Below, in pieces: positions 15,354 through 24,068 of a DNA stretch of 64,000 nucleotides. The DNA comes from Actinoplanes palleronii (GTDB taxonomy: Bacteria; Actinomycetota; Actinomycetes; Mycobacteriales; Micromonosporaceae): positions 1 through 64,000 of the forward strand of contig NZ_BOMS01000040.1 in assembly GCF_016862315.1 (NCBI RefSeq), read 5' to 3'. Below the pieces are notes generated by a model. That model made no database searches. It saw only the letters and a list, made by a program, of their open reading frames with translations, and was not told where the DNA came from. Each line of letters opens with the position of its first letter. Position 1 is the stretch's first letter. The translations under genes were made by a program, and so were the position numbers.

Positions 15354-15959
15354 GTGACGACGGTAGATCAGCGGAACCGGACGACCCCGCCGGCGCCTCG
15401 GCGGCGGTCGCGCCGCGATGAAATCCTCGAGATCGCGGTCGGACTCTTCGCGTCCCGCGGCTATCACGGGGTCTCCATGGACGACATCGGCTCGGCGGCC
15501 GGCGTCACCGGCCCGGCGTTGTATCACCACTTCGCCGGCAAGGAGGCGATGCTGGTCGCCGCGCTGATCCCGGTCAGCGACAGCCTGCTGGAGGGCGGCC
15601 GGGAACGCGTCGCCCGCCATCCGGCCGAGGCCGAGGCGGCGCTCGCCGACCTCATCGACTTCCACGTCGAGTTCGCGCTGGCCAACCCGGCCGTGATCGC
15701 CCTGCACCTGCACGAGCTGGACCGGTTGCCGGAGGAGCCACGCCGGCAGATCCGCCGGTTGCAGCGGCTCTATGTGGAGGAGTGGGTGGGTGTGCTCACC
15801 CTGCTGCGCCCGGAGCTGGAGGCGGCCGAGGCGCGGGTGCTGGCGCACGCCGCGTTCGGCCTGATGAACTCGACGCCGTTCCTGGGCGGCGAGGTGGAGC
15901 GCCGCCGGCGGGCCGACCTGCTGCGCGACGCCACCCTGCACGCCCTGACCGGCCGCTGA
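15354..15959 (+). CDS. TetR-family transcriptional regulator
   Basis: A 201-residue repressor. The N-terminal helix-turn-helix (about 20-66) reads RDEILEIAVGLFASRGYHGV, then MDDIGSAAGVTGPALYHHFAGKEAML. The C-terminal helical ligand domain resembles that of regulators of acyl-CoA metabolism. It leads a cluster of leucine/branched-acyl-CoA degradation genes, and palindromes of the AACGNNCGTT type occur upstream of itself and of the carboxyltransferase gene. It therefore probably represses the pathway until an acyl-CoA intermediate binds; the ligand is inferred. Confidence 0.92.
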   Translation: MTTVDQRNRTTPPAPRRRSRRDEILEIAVGLFASRGYHGVSMDDIGSAAGVTGPALYHHFAGKEAMLVAALIPVSDSLLEGGRERVARHPAEAEAALADLIDFHVEFALANPAVIALHLHELDRLPEEPRRQIRRLQRLYVEEWVGVLTLLRPELEAAEARVLAHAAFGLMNSTPFLGGEVERRRRADLLRDATLHALTGR

Positions 15960-16164: not shown

Positions 16165-17505
16165 ATGATCGAGTCGCTGCTCGTTGCCAACCGTGGCGAG
16201 ATCGCCCGCCGGATCATCCGCACGGCGAAACGCCTGAACATCCGCACCATCGCGGTGCACTCCGACGTCGACGCCGACCTGCCGTTCGTCACCGAGGCCG
16301 ACGAAGCCGTCTGCATCGGCCCGGCCAACCCGGCGCAGAGTTATCGCAACGTCGAGGCCGTGCTGGCTGCCGCCAAGGCGACCGGTGCGCAGGCGATCCA
16401 TCCCGGCTACGGCTTCCTGAGTGAGAACGCGGCTTTCGCCCGTACCGTCGCATCAAGCGGCCTGGTGTGGGTCGGACCCGGCGCTGACGCGATCACCGCG
16501 ATGGGCGACAAGATCAATGCTCGCAACCTGATGGCGGCGGCCGGCGTGCCGGTCGCGCCCGGCACGGCCGAGCCGGTGGCCGACGTCGACGCCGCGGTCG
16601 CGGCGGTCGGGGAGATCGGTTACCCGGTGATGGTGAAGGCGGCGGCCGGCGGTGGCGGGATGGGTATGGGTGTCGCCGCCGACGAGGCCGCCCTGCGTAC
16701 CGAGTTCGGCAAGGTGCAGGCGTTCGCCGAGCGGATGTTCGGCGACGGATCGGTGCTGCTGGAGCGGTATTTCCCCCGAGTGCGGCACGTCGAGGTGCAG
16801 ATCCTCGGCCTGGCCGACGGCCGGGTGATCGCACTGTCCGAACGGGAGTGCTCGGTGCAGCGCCGCAACCAGAAGCTGGTCGAGGAGGCACCGTCCCCGG
16901 CGGTCGGCCCGGAGTTGCGCGAGCGGATCCTGAGCGCCGCGGTCAAGGCCGGCGAGGCGGTCGGCTACCGCAACGCGGGCACCGTCGAGTGCCTGCTCGA
17001 CCCGGCCACCGGCGAGTTCTTCTTCCTGGAGATGAACACCCGGCTGCAGGTCGAGCACCCGATCACCGAGCTGATCCACGGCATCGACCTGGTCGAGCTG
17101 CAACTGCGGATCGCCAGTGGCGAGGACGTGGTCGTCAGTAACGACAAATCGGGCCACGCGATCGAGCTGCGGATCAACGCCGAGGACCCGAAGCGCTTCC
17201 TCCCCGGCCCCGGCAAGGTCGCGACGTGGGTGGAACCGGCCGGCGAAGGCGTCCGGGTGGACTCCGGCTATGCCGAGGGCACCACTGTCACTCCGCACTA
17301 CGACTCGCTGATGGCCAAGCTGATCATTTTCGGTACGGACCGCGAGGATGCGCTGGCCAAGGCCCGTGCCGCGGTGGCCGGTTTCGAGATCGTCGGACCG
17401 AAGAACAACCTGCCGTTCTTCGCCGAGCTGCTGGAGAACGACGAGTTCCGCTCCGGCGACTACGACACCGCGATCGTCTCCCGGATGCGTAAGGGTGTGA
17501 GGTGA
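16165..17505 (+). CDS. Biotin carboxylase subunit of an acyl-CoA carboxylase
   Basis: A 446-residue ATP-grasp biotin carboxylase. It has the N-terminal MIESLLVANRGEIARRI, HPGYGFLSEN (79-88), the Gly-rich ATP loop AGGGGMGMG (161-169), and the catalytic region EMNTRLQVEHPITE. It ends right after the biotin carboxylase C-terminal domain. Unlike most actinobacterial AccA proteins (about 600-700 residues) it has no biotinyl-carrier domain and no MKM motif, and no separate carrier gene is visible in the window. With HMG-CoA lyase next door it probably belongs to a methylcrotonyl-CoA carboxylase. The ATG at 16165 is preceded by an AGGGAG ribosome-binding site. Confidence 0.92.
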   Translation: MIESLLVANRGEIARRIIRTAKRLNIRTIAVHSDVDADLPFVTEADEAVCIGPANPAQSYRNVEAVLAAAKATGAQAIHPGYGFLSENAAFARTVASSGLVWVGPGADAITAMGDKINARNLMAAAGVPVAPGTAEPVADVDAAVAAVGEIGYPVMVKAAAGGGGMGMGVAADEAALRTEFGKVQAFAERMFGDGSVLLERYFPRVRHVEVQILGLADGRVIALSERECSVQRRNQKLVEEAPSPAVGPELRERILSAAVKAGEAVGYRNAGTVECLLDPATGEFFFLEMNTRLQVEHPITELIHGIDLVELQLRIASGEDVVVSNDKSGHAIELRINAEDPKRFLPGPGKVATWVEPAGEGVRVDSGYAEGTTVTPHYDSLMAKLIIFGTDREDALAKARAAVAGFEIVGPKNNLPFFAELLENDEFRSGDYDTAIVSRMRKGVR

Positions 17506-17508
17506 GCC

Positions 17509-18387
17509 GTGACGTTCATCAGCATTCGTGAGGTCGCGCCGCGCGACGGCCTGCAGAACGAGGACCCGATCCCGGCCGACGGCAAGGTCGAGCTGATCGA
17601 CGCGCTGAGCGGCACCGGTGTGCGGCGGATCGAGGCGGTCTCGTTCGTGCACCCCAAGGCGATCCCGCAGATGGCCGACGCGGACGAGGTCTGGTCGCGG
17701 ATCACCCGGAACCCGGACGTGCGGTACTCCGCGCTGATCCCGAACACCCGGGGCGCGCAGCGGGCCCTGGCCGCCGGGCTGCGGGAGATCGAGGTGGTGG
17801 TCTCGGCCAGCGACACCCACAACCGGCGCAACCTCAACCGGACCACCGACGACTCGCTCGACGACATCGCCGGGCTGATCCCGCTGGTGCACGCGGCCGG
17901 CGCGACGCTCGAGGTGATCGTCGCGACGAGCTTCGGCTGTCCGTTCGAGGGGGACATCGCGCCGACGCGGGTGGCGGAGATCGTGGCCCGGGTCCGCGCC
18001 GACGGCGCGGACCGCATCGCGTTCGGCGACACCACCGGGATGGCGACACCGCGCCGGGTCCGCGACCTGCTCTCCGAGGTACGACCGGACCTGCTGCACT
18101 TCCACGACACCCGGGGTACCGGGCTGGCCAACATCGTGACCGCGCTGGAGCTCGGGATCGTCGAGTTCGACGCCAGTGCCGGCGGGCTGGGCGGGTGTCC
18201 GTACGCGCCCGGAGCGTCCGGCAACGTGGCCACCGAAGAGGTGGTGCACATGCTGCACGACATGGGCTACGACACCGGAATAGATCTGGATCGGTTGATA
18301 GCGACCGCCGAACTGGCCGAACGTCTGGTCGGCCGTCGCCTTACGTCCGGGGTCCTCCGGGCCGGACCGCGTACCCGTCTCGTGTGA
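17509..18387 (+). CDS. mvaB: Hydroxymethylglutaryl-CoA lyase
   Basis: A 292-residue TIM-barrel lyase splitting HMG-CoA into acetyl-CoA and acetoacetate, the last step of leucine degradation. The N-terminal metal/substrate motif is EVAPRDGLQNE, the metal-binding strand is LHFHDTRGTG, and the catalytic Cys loop is GGLGGCPYAPGASGN, all diagnostic. The GTG start lies 3 bases after the biotin carboxylase stop, so the two are co-transcribed. The remaining pathway enzymes (carboxyltransferase, acyl-CoA dehydrogenase) lie 3 kb downstream beyond two secreted-protein genes. Confidence 0.93.
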   Translation: MTFISIREVAPRDGLQNEDPIPADGKVELIDALSGTGVRRIEAVSFVHPKAIPQMADADEVWSRITRNPDVRYSALIPNTRGAQRALAAGLREIEVVVSASDTHNRRNLNRTTDDSLDDIAGLIPLVHAAGATLEVIVATSFGCPFEGDIAPTRVAEIVARVRADGADRIAFGDTTGMATPRRVRDLLSEVRPDLLHFHDTRGTGLANIVTALELGIVEFDASAGGLGGCPYAPGASGNVATEEVVHMLHDMGYDTGIDLDRLIATAELAERLVGRRLTSGVLRAGPRTRLV

Positions 18388-18559
18388 TTCTTCGGCCCGT
18401 TCCCGCGATCATATTTCTGATTTGGTCGCGTGACTTTCCGCGAGCTCACGTCGTTACCAATACCGAGTGGCCGATATCGCCTGTTCCTCACTAAGAGGAA
18501 CTGATCCGTACTAAATGGATCTGATAGCGCCGCAAGGCCGACGACGAGGGGTGGATCCG

Positions 18560-19585
18560 ATGCCGGGCTGGAGGGTCGAGCGCAAGCCGCGCACGGCGTC
18601 CCGGTTCGTGCCGGACGCCCCCGGCAGCTCCCCGCTCATGCCGCCCCACAGCCAGGGGGCGGAGCGGCGGACGGAGCGCCGCGCCGGACGCACCGGATCC
18701 CGGTGGGCCCTGCGTGCACTCGTCATCAGTGGCCTGGCCGGGGCGGCCTGGCTGCTCACCGGCGCCGCCGCACACGCCGCGGGAACCGACAGTGAGCCGG
18801 ACTCCGGCTTCCAGCTCGGGACCATGTCGGACGATGCGGAGCCGGCGACCGGAAACGAATACGTGGTGAGCGAACTCCTGAAGGCGGCCGTCCAGCCGTT
18901 GGAGTCCGTACCTGAGACCCATCGCGTTCTCACCTTCCCGACCGGCTCGGACGGAGTGCCGTCCGAGACGGTGGACGAGGACGAGCCCGCGATCGACGTG
19001 GAGCTCTTCGACGAGGTCCGGCGACCGGCGACCGCGCCGCTGCGTACCAGTGGCGGAGATGCGGACGACCAGGAACGGGCCGAGCCGGGGAGCGACACGG
19101 CTGATGCCGTGCCGGTGATGGTTGTGCCGGCCGGCGTACCGAAGGCCCTGGTGGCCGACGCCGTGACCGAACGGACCGCTGCTGAGCTGCCGGAACACCC
19201 GGCTGCGAGCGGTACCGGCGGTGCGGCGGCACGCAGCAGCATCCGGGTCTCGCGCGCCCCGGCCGGTCATTCACCGGCCCGGCGCGCCAAGGCCCACTCC
19301 CGGTCACACGTCCATCGGCATGCCCCGGCCGCCCGGCCGGTTGCGTCGGTGGCGATCCGGGAGACCGTGCCCGACGGCGACGGACCCGCGCCTGCGCGGA
19401 TGAACCTCGGGGCAGTCAGCGGTGTCCCGGCCGGTGGGCCGGGAGCATCCACGGAGAGCGGCTCGTCAGCCGTTCTTCCGGGCGGGATCGTGAACGGCCC
19501 GGTGGCCTGCCACCGCTGTCCGGTCGCACCCGATGTCGACGCCCGGCGGCATGACGCCGAGGCGCCGACCGTCTCACCTGACTAG
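18560..19585 (+). CDS. Secreted protein of unknown function
   Basis: A 341-residue protein with an unusually long basic N terminus (about 50 residues), then a hydrophobic segment SRWALRALVISGLAGAAWLL and an AHA-A signal cleavage site near residue 74. The mature part is low-complexity, rich in Ala, Pro, Asp and Glu, with a His/Arg-rich stretch (SRSHVHRHAP) and a single Cys pair in ACHRCP near the C terminus. No domain is recognised. ATG 18560 has a GAGGGG ribosome-binding site, whereas ATG 18515 does not. It lies directly upstream of the chaplin-like gene and may be a partner in surface assembly. Confidence 0.65.
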   Translation: MPGWRVERKPRTASRFVPDAPGSSPLMPPHSQGAERRTERRAGRTGSRWALRALVISGLAGAAWLLTGAAAHAAGTDSEPDSGFQLGTMSDDAEPATGNEYVVSELLKAAVQPLESVPETHRVLTFPTGSDGVPSETVDEDEPAIDVELFDEVRRPATAPLRTSGGDADDQERAEPGSDTADAVPVMVVPAGVPKALVADAVTERTAAELPEHPAASGTGGAAARSSIRVSRAPAGHSPARRAKAHSRSHVHRHAPAARPVASVAIRETVPDGDGPAPARMNLGAVSGVPAGGPGASTESGSSAVLPGGIVNGPVACHRCPVAPDVDARRHDAEAPTVSPD

Positions 19586-19851
19586 CGCCACCTGACCAGT
19601 GATGGCCTCGGCGGTGCGTCTCACGCAGCCGTCTCGACCGGGCCCGACGATTCCCGAACCGTTTGCGTACAAGCGGCGAATCGTGTGGGGCCTGAGGAGC
19701 GACCATCACGGCACCGCGCCGTCACGCCTCCAGAGGAGGCCGGAGAAATCGAGCCAGGGCACCGCTGCGCCCAAAATCGATGTTCTGGAACCAGCTAATT
19801 GAATACGTGGAAAACCCTTGCTGACCATTTTTGAAAGGCATCACTTTTCTC
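19586..19851. other. Intergenic region upstream of the chaplin-like gene
   Basis: These 266 bases separate the secreted-protein gene from the chaplin-like gene. The last 60 bases before the start are noticeably more AT-rich than the surroundings and could hold a developmental promoter, but no sigma consensus could be assigned with confidence. Confidence 0.5.
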
Positions 19852-21222
19852 ATGAAGAAGACGTGGGTTCGTAAGACGTTGAGCGTCGGGATCATGGCTG
19901 CCGGTGCCCTGCTGCTCGCCCCGGCCGCCGCACAGGCCGGTCTCGGCTCGTCCGGCGCCGGCCAGGACGGGATCACCCAGATCACGTCCACCAACCTCGG
20001 CGCGCTGAACGGCACGCAGTTCGCGATGCCGGTCAACGCCCCGATGAACATGAACGGCAACGCCCTCGCGCTGGGCGGCATCTCGAAGGCCTCCGGCGCC
20101 GGCGTCAACCGGGTCGCCGAGGGCTCGTACCGCAAGGGCGGCAGCGGGATCAACCAGGCTTCCGGCGGCAACGTCGGCTTCCTGAACGGCACCCAGATCG
20201 CCGTGCCGGTCACCGTGCCGGTGAACATGAACGGCAACGCGGACAGCCTGTTCGGGATCAGCTCGGCCCAGGGTGGCGGGGTCAACCGGATCGAGGGTGG
20301 CCAGGTCGCCCAGGGTGGCCACGGCGGCGGGATCAGCCAGTCGTCCGGCGGCAACGTCGGCTTCCTGAACGGCAACCAGATCGCCGTGCCGATCACCATC
20401 CCGATCAACCAGTGCGGCAACTCGACCTCGATCTTCGGGATCTCCTCGGCGCAGGCCACCTGTGGCAACTTCATCGGTGCCACCGGCCGGATGGCGCAGG
20501 TCAGCGGCGGCCAGAGCGGCCACAGTGGCCAGGGCAACGGCGGCAGCCAGGGCGGCTGGGGTCACGGCAACGACAACGGCAACCACTGGGGCCACGGCAA
20601 CGACCGCGGTCCGTGGGGCCACGGTGCCGGCCGGGACCCGTGGGGCCACGGCTGGGACAGCGGCATCAACCAGAGCAGCTTCGGCAACATCGGGTTCCTG
20701 AACGGCACGCAGTACGCGGCGCCGATCATCGCCCCGATCAACGTCTGCGGCAACTCGTTCGGTGGCCTGTTCGGCGCGTCCAGCGCGTCGGCGGTCTGCG
20801 TGAACCGCATCGGTGACGACGGCGGCCACTGGGTCAAGCCGGCCAAGGGTCACGGCCACGGCCACGTCAAGGGCGACAAGAACTGCACCTGCAAGGACAA
20901 GGGCGACAAGGGCGGCGTCCGCGGCGACAACGGCTACAAGGGTGACAAGCCGGCCGCCGTCAACGACGACAAGGGTTACAGCAACAAGACCCCGGTCGAC
21001 GTGAACGACGACGACAACGGCTACGGCGACGTCCAGGACGACGACGTTGACGACACCGACACCGGCGACGTCAAGGGCGACAAGGGTGACAAGGGCTACG
21101 GCGACGTCAAGGACGACAAGTACGGCGACAAGACCGGTGGCCGCAAGACCGTCGAGTCGGCGTCGGTCAGCAACCTGACCGGCAGCCTGGGCGGTCTCGA
21201 CCTGCTCGACAGCCTGCGCTGA
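19852..21222 (+). CDS. Secreted chaplin-like repeat protein with KGDKG tail
   Basis: A 456-residue exported protein with a clear signal peptide (MKKTWVRKTL..., cleavage after AQA at residue 29). Four repeats of about 45-50 residues (about 39-87, 99-147, 160-206, 271-319) follow the chaplin pattern: G-N-x-G-x-L-N-G-x-Q, then P-V-x-x-P-(V/I)-N, then a (C/M)-G-N turn. Repeats 3 and 4 carry the chaplin-type Cys pair (Cys188/204 and Cys299/316), while repeats 1 and 2 have lost it (NMNGN). A Gly/His/Trp-rich linker (220-270) and an Asp/Lys/Gly tail (330-430) follow. There is no LAXTG sorting signal. A role as a surface-active coat protein of hyphae or spores is inferred. ATG 19852 fits the signal peptide; TTG 19831 is the alternative. 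Confidence 0.82.
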   Translation: MKKTWVRKTLSVGIMAAGALLLAPAAAQAGLGSSGAGQDGITQITSTNLGALNGTQFAMPVNAPMNMNGNALALGGISKASGAGVNRVAEGSYRKGGSGINQASGGNVGFLNGTQIAVPVTVPVNMNGNADSLFGISSAQGGGVNRIEGGQVAQGGHGGGISQSSGGNVGFLNGNQIAVPITIPINQCGNSTSIFGISSAQATCGNFIGATGRMAQVSGGQSGHSGQGNGGSQGGWGHGNDNGNHWGHGNDRGPWGHGAGRDPWGHGWDSGINQSSFGNIGFLNGTQYAAPIIAPINVCGNSFGGLFGASSASAVCVNRIGDDGGHWVKPAKGHGHGHVKGDKNCTCKDKGDKGGVRGDNGYKGDKPAAVNDDKGYSNKTPVDVNDDDNGYGDVQDDDVDDTDTGDVKGDKGDKGYGDVKDDKYGDKTGGRKTVESASVSNLTGSLGGLDLLDSLR

Positions 21223-21250
21223 CACTGATCCTTCGGCGCGGTGACGCGTG

Positions 21251-21283
21251 AACGGGAGCCCCAGCATCGGCGGGGCTCCCGTT
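21251..21283 (+). terminator. Terminator hairpin after the chaplin-like gene
   Basis: A perfect 12-bp stem (AACGGGAGCCCC with GGGGCTCCCGTT) around a 9-base loop. The downstream T tract is poor. It separates the secreted-protein genes from the carboxyltransferase operon. Confidence 0.75.
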
Positions 21284-21317
21284 CGTCGTTGCCGCCGGTC
21301 CACGTTCTGGGATAGCC

Positions 21318-21345
21318 TAACGATCGTTAACCCTGACGGTCGTCA
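21318..21345. promoter_or_regulatory. Tandem putative TetR operators, copy B
   Basis: TAACGATCGTTA (21318-21329) is a perfect 12-bp palindrome. TGACGGTCGTCA (21334-21345) is a second one with the same T-N-ACG-NN-CGT-N-A layout and a centre-to-centre distance of 16 bp. They lie 25-53 bases upstream of the carboxyltransferase ATG. The TetR protein encoded at 15354, whose own upstream region has a related AACGACCGTT, is the likely binder. Confidence 0.65.
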
Positions 21346-21370: not shown

Positions 21371-22894
21371 ATGGACAGTGACGCGCTGGCGCAGGTCCGC
21401 AAGCGTGTGCTGGCCGGTGGCGCGGAGCGGTACCACGCCGCTAACGCGGCGAAAGGCAAGCTCTTCGCCCGTGAACGGATCGCGCTCCTGGCCGACGAGG
21501 GTTCGTTCGTCGAGGACGGGATCTACGCCAACAGTCTGGCCGACGGACTGCCCGCCGATGGTGTGATCACCGGAGTCGCCCGGATCGACGGCCGCGACGT
21601 GTGCGTGATGGCGAACGACTCCACGGTCAAGGCCGGCTCCTGGGGCGCCCGCACGGTGGAGAAAATCGTCCGGATCATCGAGCGGGCGTACCAGCTCAGC
21701 ATCCCGATGATCTACCTGGTCGACTCGGCCGGCGCGCGGATCACCGACCAGGTCGACCTCTTCCCCGGCCGTCGCGGCGCCGGCAAGATCTTCCACACCC
21801 AGGTCCGTGCCTCCGGCGCCATTCCGCAGATCTGCGCGCTGTTCGGGCCGTCCGCCGCGGGTGGCGCCTACATCCCGGCCTTCTGCGACGTGGTCGCCAT
21901 GGTCGAGGGCAACGCCAGCATGTACCTGGGATCCGACCGCATGGTCGAGATGGTCACCGGGGAGAAGACCACGCTCGAGGCGATGGGCGGTGCCCGGGTG
22001 CACTGCGCCGAGTCGGGCGTCGGGCACTTCCTGTGCAAGACCGAGCGCGAGGCGCTCGACGTGGTGCGCACCTACCTGTCGTACGTTCCGTCCAACTGGA
22101 CGCAGCAGCCGCCCGCGGCGGCGGTCGCCGGTCCGTCCGGCGCCGACCTCGCGGCGCTGGTCCCGGCCAGCGAGCGCCAGGCGTTCGACATGCGGAAGTA
22201 CGTCAAGGGCCTGGTCGACGAGAACTCGTTCTTCGAGATCCAGGCGCTCTGGGCGCGCGAGCTGACCGTCGGCTTCGCCCGGCTGGACGGCGAGGTGGTC
22301 GGCGTCCTCGGCAACAACTCGATGTTCAAGGGCGGCGTGCTCTTCGTCGACTCGGCCGACAAGGCGAGCCGGTTCGTGCAGCTCTGCGACGCCTTCAACA
22401 TCCCGCTGCTGTTCCTCACCGACGTGCCCGGTTTCATGGTCGGTTCCGCGGTGGAGAAGCAGGGCATCATCCGGCACGGCGCAAAAATGATCACCGCGAT
22501 CTCCGAGGCCACAGTGCCGAAGATCTGCGTGGTGGTGCGTAAGGCGTACGGCGCCGGGCTCTACGCGATGGCCGGTCCGGGATTTGAGCCGGACGCCACC
22601 ATCGCCCTGCCCACCGCGAAGATCGCGGTAATGGGCGCCGAAGCCGCGGTCAACGCGGTGTACGCCAACAAGATCGCGGCGATCGAGGACCCGGATGCCC
22701 GGGCCGCCTTCGTCGCCGAGCGCCGCGCCGAGTATGAGCGCGACATCGACATCATGCGCCTGGCCAGCGAACTCGTCGTGGACGCCGTGGTGGAACCGGG
22801 CGATCTGCGGGCCGAGCTGATCCGGCGCTTCTCCGCCGCGCGTGGCAAGGACCGCTCGTTCTCCCGTCGCCGCCACGGCGTCACTCCGGTCTAG
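21371..22894 (+). CDS. Acyl-CoA carboxylase carboxyltransferase (probable methylcrotonyl-CoA carboxylase beta)
   Basis: A 507-residue crotonase-fold carboxyltransferase. The N-terminal half holds the acyl-CoA pocket (LVDSAGARITDQ, then FGPSAAGGAYIPAF). The C-terminal half holds the carboxybiotin site (FLTDVPGFMVGS and VRKAYGAGLYAM). The DQVDLFPGRRGAGKIFHTQV segment resembles methylcrotonyl-CoA carboxylases rather than AccD5-type propionyl-CoA enzymes, supporting leucine breakdown together with the biotin carboxylase at 16165. The ATG at 21371 has a GGGGAG ribosome-binding site, and tandem operator palindromes lie just upstream. Confidence 0.92.
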   Translation: MDSDALAQVRKRVLAGGAERYHAANAAKGKLFARERIALLADEGSFVEDGIYANSLADGLPADGVITGVARIDGRDVCVMANDSTVKAGSWGARTVEKIVRIIERAYQLSIPMIYLVDSAGARITDQVDLFPGRRGAGKIFHTQVRASGAIPQICALFGPSAAGGAYIPAFCDVVAMVEGNASMYLGSDRMVEMVTGEKTTLEAMGGARVHCAESGVGHFLCKTEREALDVVRTYLSYVPSNWTQQPPAAAVAGPSGADLAALVPASERQAFDMRKYVKGLVDENSFFEIQALWARELTVGFARLDGEVVGVLGNNSMFKGGVLFVDSADKASRFVQLCDAFNIPLLFLTDVPGFMVGSAVEKQGIIRHGAKMITAISEATVPKICVVVRKAYGAGLYAMAGPGFEPDATIALPTAKIAVMGAEAAVNAVYANKIAAIEDPDARAAFVAERRAEYERDIDIMRLASELVVDAVVEPGDLRAELIRRFSAARGKDRSFSRRRHGVTPV

Positions 22895-22910
22895 GGACAG
22901 GTGTCCGGTA

Positions 22911-24068
22911 ATGGTGGATTTCCGGCTCGGCGACGAGCTGACAGACCTTCGGGACAGCGTTCGGCAGTTCGCTCGCGAGCAGGTGGCGCCGGTGATCGCC
23001 GAACATTATGAAAACAAGACTTTTCCGTACGATGTGATCCGTCAGATGGGCGCCATGGGCCTGTTCGGCCTGCCCTTCCCGGAGGAGTACGGCGGCATGG
23101 GCGGCGACTACTTCGCGCTCTGTCTCGTCCTGGAAGAGCTGGCCAGAGTGGACAGTTCGGTCGCCATCACACTGGAGGCGGCGGTCTCCCTCGGCGCCAT
23201 GCCGATCTTCCGGTACGGCACCGAGGCCCAGCGCAAGCAGTGGCTCCCGCAGCTGCTCAGTGGTGAGGCGCTTGCCGCTTTCGGTCTCACCGAGCCCGGC
23301 TGTGGCTCGGACGCGGCCGGCACCACCACCCGCGCGGTGCTCGACGAGTCGACCGGCGAGTGGGTGATCAATGGGACCAAGGCGTTCATCACCAACTCCG
23401 GCACCGACATCACGGTGCTGGTCACGGTCACCGCGGTCACCGGGATCAAGCCGGACGGCAGCAAGGAGCTCTCCACGATCATCGTGCCGTCCGGTACACC
23501 CGGCTTCACGGTGGCGCCGGGCTACTCCAAGGTCGGCTGGTGCGCGTCGGACACCCACGAGCTCTCGTTCGACGACGTCCGGGTCCCGGCCGAGAACCTG
23601 CTCGGTGAGCGGGGCCGTGGGTTCGCCCAGTTCCTGCGGATCCTCGACGAGGGCCGGATCGCGATCGCCGCGCTCTCCGTCGGCCTGGCGCAGGGCTGTG
23701 TCGACGAGTCGGTGTCGTACGCGAAGCAGCGCACCGCGTTCGGCCACCCGATCGGCGACAACCAGGCCGTCCAGTTCCTGATCGCGGACATGGACCTGCG
23801 CGCGCACGTGGCCCGCCTCGGCTATTACGACGCGGCCGCCCGGATGCTGGCCGGCGACGACTTCAAGCGGTACGCCGCGATCGCCAAGCTGAACGCCAGC
23901 AATGCCGCCATGGAGAACAGCCGGTACGCCACCCAGGTGCACGGCGGGTACGGCTTCATGAACGAGTCGGCAGTCGGCCGCTTCTACCGCGACGCCAAGA
24001 TCCTCGAGGTCGGCGAGGGTACGTCCGAGGTGCAGCGGATGCTGATCGCTCGCGGTCTCGGGCTGTAG
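22911..24068 (+). CDS. Acyl-CoA dehydrogenase, probable isovaleryl/short-branched type
   Basis: A 385-residue FAD flavoprotein of the classical acyl-CoA dehydrogenase fold. The FAD-binding segment is AFGLTEPGCGSDA, followed by the INGTKAFITNSG strand. The C-terminal helical domain includes QVHGGYGFMNES and the catalytic-Glu segment VGEGTSEVQRMLIAR. It oxidises an acyl-CoA to the enoyl-CoA, passing electrons to ETF. It starts 16 bases after the carboxyltransferase stop, with which it is surely co-transcribed, so isovaleryl-CoA is the favoured substrate. Confidence 0.92.
   Translation: MVDFRLGDELTDLRDSVRQFAREQVAPVIAEHYENKTFPYDVIRQMGAMGLFGLPFPEEYGGMGGDYFALCLVLEELARVDSSVAITLEAAVSLGAMPIFRYGTEAQRKQWLPQLLSGEALAAFGLTEPGCGSDAAGTTTRAVLDESTGEWVINGTKAFITNSGTDITVLVTVTAVTGIKPDGSKELSTIIVPSGTPGFTVAPGYSKVGWCASDTHELSFDDVRVPAENLLGERGRGFAQFLRILDEGRIAIAALSVGLAQGCVDESVSYAKQRTAFGHPIGDNQAVQFLIADMDLRAHVARLGYYDAAARMLAGDDFKRYAAIAKLNASNAAMENSRYATQVHGGYGFMNESAVGRFYRDAKILEVGEGTSEVQRMLIARGLGL

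Follow-up and report, generated by a model that had tools for sequence, protein, structure and literature searches.

The first 64,000 nucleotides of contig NZ_BOMS01000040.1 of Actinoplanes palleronii (assembly GCF_016862315.1), referred to here as the window, carry two adjacent genes for secreted proteins inside a leucine/acyl-CoA catabolic cluster. Both reading frames, first described in an earlier note on this DNA, are present as placed there, at 18560-19585 and 19852-21222. On balance we favour the reading that the locus is an old two-gene secreted module of the Micromonosporaceae, the larger protein being a divergent, sortase-free chaplin that would form a hyphal surface layer and the smaller one its companion. 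The evidence read from sequence comprises the domains of the larger protein, its signal peptide and lack of a sortase signal, the orthology of the pair, the age of its position, its repeated absence (with relics in one case) and an upstream element of its own. Coordinates refer to the window throughout, and all features lie on the forward strand.

The larger protein (456 residues) is chaplin-like in its repeats, as had been proposed: a check against the PF03777 profile (ChpA-C, DUF320) gave E 8e-13 and 48.5 bits (cut-off 21) over four stretches, a match far beyond chance, and its gene is the sole PF03777 place at E 0.001 or better in the 11.2-Mb genome. The probable start is ATG 19852, whose start motif recurs among orthologues; TTG 19831 is a less likely one. 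The N-terminus, MKKTWVRKTLSVGIMAAGALLLAP..AQA, has the look of a Sec signal peptide (MKKTWVRKTLSVGIMAAGALLLAPAAAQA, 19852-19938, with a putative cleavage site), and its start motif is the same in orthologues of the genus and present in variant form in Dactylosporangium and Hamadaea. Four chaplin-type repeats follow, at 19978-20109, 20155-20286, 20338-20469 (the best Pfam stretch) and 20671-20805, the last two being separated by a Gly/His/Trp-rich linker (20494-20655). A hydrophilic Asp/Lys/Gly tail (20827-21177) leads to a loosely conserved C-terminal end, TGSLGGLDLLDSLR (21178-21219), which has no LPXTG and whose loose pattern is fitted by 50 of 55 rows. The unusual composition of the tail, also pointed out before, is confirmed by the last 131 residues, which include 27 Asp, 18 Lys and 24 Gly. 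The protein has no NCBIfam match, and no PDB sequence match up to E 1.

Repeats 1 and 2 contain no Cys and repeats 3 and 4 two each. The earlier note had described two repeats as having lost the Cys pair; this holds as description, yet the distribution is an old one and tied to particular positions. In a genus sample of 67 genomes, the window genome included, 59 long-protein rows were obtained from 58 genomes (G031 being represented by two pieces owing to masked stretches), and 28 of the 59 show the pattern '--C-C' and 15 '--CC'. Because the pattern is shared with other genomes of the genus, decay in this single genome is ruled out as the cause of Cys loss. The '--CC' of the window looks like a five-repeat ancestor minus its Cys-free fourth repeat. 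Neither the window protein nor any of the 59 long genus rows or of seven named rows outside the genus has a sortase pentapeptide among its last 60 residues, the rows of G014 and G046 and one of the two G031 pieces ending at cuts (contig ends for G014 and G046); by letters alone, the motif is found outside the last 60 residues in two rows (L158, L169).

Like the long chaplins ChpA-C of Streptomyces, the protein is secreted, has more than one chaplin domain and carries the Cys pair in only some of them; according to the available text of PMC13251363 and PMC5618241 the pair is not universal in Streptomyces chaplins, being absent from ChpE and from the C-terminal domain of ChpB (for the latter, PMC13251363). 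ChpA-C, however, are of about 225 residues with two domains and end in a sortase sorting signal, whereas the present protein has 456 residues, four divergent domains (five in many orthologues), a polar tail and an LGGLDLL end, and its genome has no second PF03777 place. The short chaplins ChpD-H share with it the chaplin domain and the Cys pair, here present in two repeats, but have one domain and about 55 residues. Streptomyces chaplin domains assemble into amyloid surface films, and the long chaplins, which carry a sortase signal, are considered tethers of the short ones (PMC5618241, in its available part). Lacking that signal, our protein therefore fits neither Streptomyces class, long or short, and is a divergent multi-domain variant. 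Short single-domain chaplin frames of 87-99 residues do occur in at least five of the 67 genus genomes (G004, G006, G009, G021 and G024; L182-L186), away from the pair locus; the PF03777 search of the window genome showed none.

The genus has another pair of surface-secreted proteins encoded by two adjacent genes, CwpA and CwpB of A. missouriensis (AMIS_70730/70740), which the available text of PMC13251363 presents as sortase-anchored hydrophobic proteins. They differ from ours in being sortase substrates, in having no chaplin domains and in position, the A. missouriensis orthologue of our gene lying at about 31.8-33.0 kb of the chromosome and the orthologous pair, in strain 431, at about 30.6-33.0 kb; the same text does not mention the pair locus. 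A further protein, SspA, is described in PMC13293333 (part available). A survey of actinobacterial genomes (PMC4255298, in the portion available) lists chaplin-like genes in a few other genera, Actinoplanes and Micromonospora not being among them. In what could be seen of the literature on chaplins in these organisms we found no description of this gene, which is no proof of its absence from print.

The partner (18560-19585; 341 residues) is a conserved protein, secreted or membrane-tethered, that has no match in Pfam or NCBIfam. It has a basic stretch at the N-terminus and a single hydrophobic segment, and is conserved in its N-terminal part and at the C-terminal end (RRHDAEAPTVSPD) but poorly in between. 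That it is a real gene, as had been supposed, is borne out by matches in 59 of the 67 genomes; outside the genus it is matched in Spirilliplanes and Micromonospora pattaloongensis, and weakly (E 1e-5) in Dactylosporangium. The two genes travel together: 57 genomes have partner and repeats, two the partner only (G013, G062), one the repeats only (G025) and seven neither. In G013 and G062 a frame with a signal peptide follows the partner, with repeats undetected.

Upstream of the pair, a 62-row alignment, built from loci matched over nearly all of the region, reveals a near-invariant element, TCGTTACCAATACCGAGTGGCCGATATCG (18451-18479), a candidate promoter or operator. It has one site in the window, and even with up to 3 mismatches allowed the genome has a single occurrence of its first 22 bases. 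A WhiG/FliA promoter was considered and rejected: a -10-like GCCGATAT is present, but the -35 TAAA of the flagellar/WhiG consensus (PMC8325347, as available) is absent. A scan for sigma-70-type promoters found none.

The position of the pair is old. In the genus, close orthologues (at least 81 percent identity) of both flanking genes, for an HMG-CoA (3-hydroxy-3-methylglutaryl-CoA) lyase-like protein on the left (17509-18387) and a carboxyltransferase on the right (21371-22894), both assigned by Pfam and orthologue search, are present in 63 of the 67 genomes, and wherever the two share a contig their order and orientation are unchanged (a contig break separates them in G014, G043 and G046). 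For this comparison the two genes were taken as 17509-18384 and 21371-22891. The slot between them is filled in 60 genomes, 56 with both neighbours and four with the neighbours lost, and the interval measures 1.9-3.6 kb when filled and 142-591 bp when empty. PF03777 itself matches in 50 of the 67 genomes; a repeat model built from the window and its relatives finds long repeat proteins at the locus in 58. The seven empty slots (G011, G012, G019, G026, G049, G050, G056) are those of the seven genomes with neither gene. Outside the genus, a chaplin-type frame occupies the slot in seven of 33 named rows with both neighbours, those of Spirilliplanes yamanashiensis, M. pattaloongensis, two Catellatospora, Dactylosporangium fulvum and two Hamadaea. 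In a sample of one genome per genus, 25 of 43 genera have a PF03777 match, which in 17 of the 25 follows the lyase on its strand at a distance of no more than 4 kb; in the other eight it is farther away, on another contig or upstream, or the lyase orthologue is missing. In the family sample PF03777 matches 140 of 300 genomes and 27 of 44 genera, with many of the matches listed in frames of some 200-700 residues that contain several, the best among those listed reaching about 46 bits. In the class sample 52 of 246 genomes match, and the best matches listed, at 86-106 bits, come nearly all from one genus, probably Streptomyces, with 6-15 matches per genome.

These data bear on the proposal of the earlier note that the two secreted-protein genes were recently inserted into an acyl-CoA operon. 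Both genes do stand between pathway genes, seven genomes of the genus have short intervals there, and the repeat model found no repeat in the slot of the other 26 of the 33 outgroup rows (Pilimelia, Plantactinospora and other Micromonospora, for example; intervals 119-4077 bp). But the order lyase, chaplin gene, carboxyltransferase is usual in the genus and recurs in five other genera; the comparison of relatives, which the note itself had named as decisive, thus finds a gene order that is old in the Micromonosporaceae. A related signal-peptide start is found in four of those five outgroups (it was not seen in the Catellatospora frames), and the extra-generic partner matches given above point the same way. 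In a two-protein tree of 96 rows (five of them placed by hand, and rooted on a branch of support 79) the slot needs seven changes of state, and the empty genus rows are nested in four or five places among filled ones. The tree by itself cannot separate gain from loss, but the G049 interval can: though empty, it has kept matches to the upstream element, to part of the 5' DNA of the partner gene and to the leader hairpin described below. Shorter upstream remnants persist in G012, G026 and G050, and G011, G019 and G056 match only around the lyase end. Loss is the best reading of the seven empty sites, and a recent insertion, contradicted for this lineage by relics and outgroups, we consider to have hardly any chance of being right. 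To judge from these comparisons, the pair is an old feature of its position. It was also worth considering that close functional coupling to leucine catabolism explains the location. This was ruled out because either the pair or the pathway genes can be lost without the other: in G022, G028 and G032 the locus keeps TetR, partner, chaplin gene and dehydrogenase with no match to biotin carboxylase, lyase or carboxyltransferase, and a lyase remnant of 39 residues is left at that of G053. Pair and pathway are separable neighbours.

How the module might work can be set out on the same footing. The 456-residue protein would be exported by Sec, and its four beta-rich chaplin repeats would assemble into a surface layer on hyphae, two of them able to form a disulphide and two not. 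The polar Asp/Lys/Gly tail and the LGGLDLL end may hold the protein in or on the wall without sortase, the layer being retained by the tail, the C-terminal end or the partner. With no short chaplin seen in the genome and without a sorting signal of its own, the protein would have to work alone or with the partner, for which we infer the part of a dedicated companion, membrane-tethered or secreted. Several observations weigh against such a layer. The repeats score about 22-46 bits against PF03777 in the Micromonosporaceae, compared with 86-106 for the best matches listed in the class, so functional equivalence to chaplins is not given. Their hydrophobicity is mild (grand average of hydropathy 0.17-0.62), and ratios of non-synonymous to synonymous substitution against five near relatives (NG86, uncorrected for codon bias) are about 0.77-0.95 in the repeats and 0.86-1.01 in the tail; most residues are therefore weakly constrained. 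On the favourable side, an AlphaFold2 model of the four-repeat part from 34 rows gave the same series of strands in each repeat, with a predicted local distance difference test score (pLDDT) of about 65-84 in repeats 1-3 and 56-75, the lowest, in repeat 4, but the model as a whole is weak (mean pLDDT 61, predicted template modelling score 0.47). Searched against the PDB with Foldseek it has no match at E 0.001 or better; the best is the functional amyloid FapC (E 0.067; VIA Z 2.7), a resemblance that is not significant and shows no relation, and VIA-align gave Z of at most 4.7. The predicted structure thus offers a hint at most. The pair is missing from 7 of 67 genomes, and Pfam matches nothing in four orthologues whose middles are altered, the A. 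missouriensis one included.

In some species the stretch between the same signal peptide and a similar C-terminal end is made of other repeats. In the A. missouriensis orthologue (G035, L118:2302-3486) His-rich HQGFTG units have taken the place of most chaplin repeats, one degenerate chaplin repeat being left; that of G062 (L117:2472-4151), which has no Pfam match, contains TLHNVFHPS-like and GDVRGD-like repeats instead. Such exchange of His-rich or Gly-rich repeats between similar ends would suit a secreted adhesin or biofilm-matrix protein, in which chaplin-like repeats serve attachment and not hyphal hydrophobicity, as would the polar, repeat-rich and fast-changing linker and tail. Some Streptomyces chaplins also serve attachment (PMC4255298, in its available part). 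Set against this, 58 of the 60 filled genomes show chaplin repeats at this locus, and we regard an adhesin as a doubtful alternative. A role in hyphal or sporangial coats, as the earlier note had suggested, is plausible from the sequence. Winogradskya humida L228, which we take to form sporangia, has an empty slot, whereas Catellatospora, Hamadaea and Spirilliplanes, which we presume lack them, have a filled one; this distribution speaks for a role at the hyphal surface rather than one in sporangia only. A sporangium- or spore-specific coat protein accordingly seems quite improbable to us, the more so as no -35 TAAA of the flagellar/WhiG consensus (PMC8325347, as available) is found in the upstream element, although Actinoplanes does form sporangia and other surface proteins there affect them (PMC13293333 and PMC13251363, both in part). 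A sortase-free chaplin of the hyphal surface is thus the reading we retain.

The locus also encodes two conserved RNA hairpins. One lies inside the 5' coding region of the partner gene (18632-18670) and shows clear compensatory changes. In an alignment of 39 distinct rows, two of them from outgroups, pairing holds in 96.5 percent of cells, and slid controls do not exceed 69 percent; two-sided changes affect 7 pairs and 13 cells, compared with 2.1 and 3.0 in shuffled alignments and at most 5 and 7 in slid ones. Its score of 0.219 exceeds that of any slid control (at most 0.124) and is reached by 0 of 500 shuffles, which ignore the relatedness of the rows. An earlier count on 35 rows gave the same picture. 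The codons beneath it are nearly constant; as proof of an RNA element this was weakened on recount, since constancy (at least 95 percent) is not confined to the hairpin, being found at 8 of 25 comparable sites elsewhere in the partner gene, 8 of 34 in the chaplin gene and 2 of 154 in the lyase gene. The unpaired step before its inner stem reads ATG, TTG or GTG in 36 of 40 rows and might be a second start; against this, four rows have no such codon, and conservation extends to a purine-rich stretch ahead of ATG 18560.

The other hairpin (19648-19683) lies in the leader between the two genes. In 55 leaders its seven-pair upper stem is always paired, three positions varying among C-G, U-G and U-A, and across 44 rows pairing holds in 96.2 percent of cells, where slid controls reach 50 percent at most. 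Two-sided changes are few (5 cells, 1.2 when shuffled), and two slid controls equal or exceed them, 6 cells and a score of 0.112 being the highest control values where the hairpin itself scores 0.107; covariation is therefore weak here, and constant pairing is the stronger point. A model of this hairpin matches 60 of the 67 genomes, once each except in G045, which has two matches on two contigs, both with the locus. These are 58 filled genomes, the G049 relic and, weakly and on another contig, G019; the filled genomes G005 and G059 gave no match. Rfam searched over 18380-19900 returned three matches up to E 10, far below gathering scores and none overlapping either hairpin. A second strongly conserved stretch of the leader, at 19750-19777 around CAGGGCACCGCTGCGCCC, is possibly a short hairpin. 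The two hairpins could conceivably form a new, locus-specific RNA device that sets the dose of companion and coat protein post-transcriptionally, in a chaplin system without sortase or short chaplins, an idea that we put forward tentatively.

The flanking genes fit the leucine/acyl-CoA cluster recognised in the earlier note. Besides the lyase and carboxyltransferase, Pfam identifies a TetR-family regulator (15354-15959), a biotin carboxylase (16165-17505) and an acyl-CoA dehydrogenase (22911-24068, searched as 22908-24065). The carboxylase and ATP-grasp domains of the biotin carboxylase are matched in Pfam, with no biotin carrier domain reported there. A palindrome, AACGATCGTT (21319-21328), before the carboxyltransferase gene is a candidate TetR operator, and AACGACCGTT precedes the TetR gene; two sites are found where 0.94 are expected, so the count is weak by itself. 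The first is kept in the empty intervals, exactly in six and with one change in the seventh. These palindromes suggest two transcription units around the pair, for which itself we infer independent transcription. A perfect 13-bp inverted repeat after the chaplin gene (21250-21284) is terminator-like without a T-run; the sites returned by a terminator scan do not include it.

Chaplins are textbook coat proteins of Streptomyces, and here PF03777 is present in 140 of 300 genomes of another family, with no sortase signal in the genus rows checked, which raises the question of what would keep a chaplin layer in place in the absence of covalent anchoring. The function is open to test, because A. missouriensis, in which working genetics including gene deletions are described (PMC13251363, in the text available), keeps an orthologue, albeit strongly altered, and the hairpin inside the partner frame offers a handle on regulation. 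The locus thus provides a candidate coat protein that is real, divergent, old and chaplin-like, with a conserved partner and an unusual conserved RNA structure.

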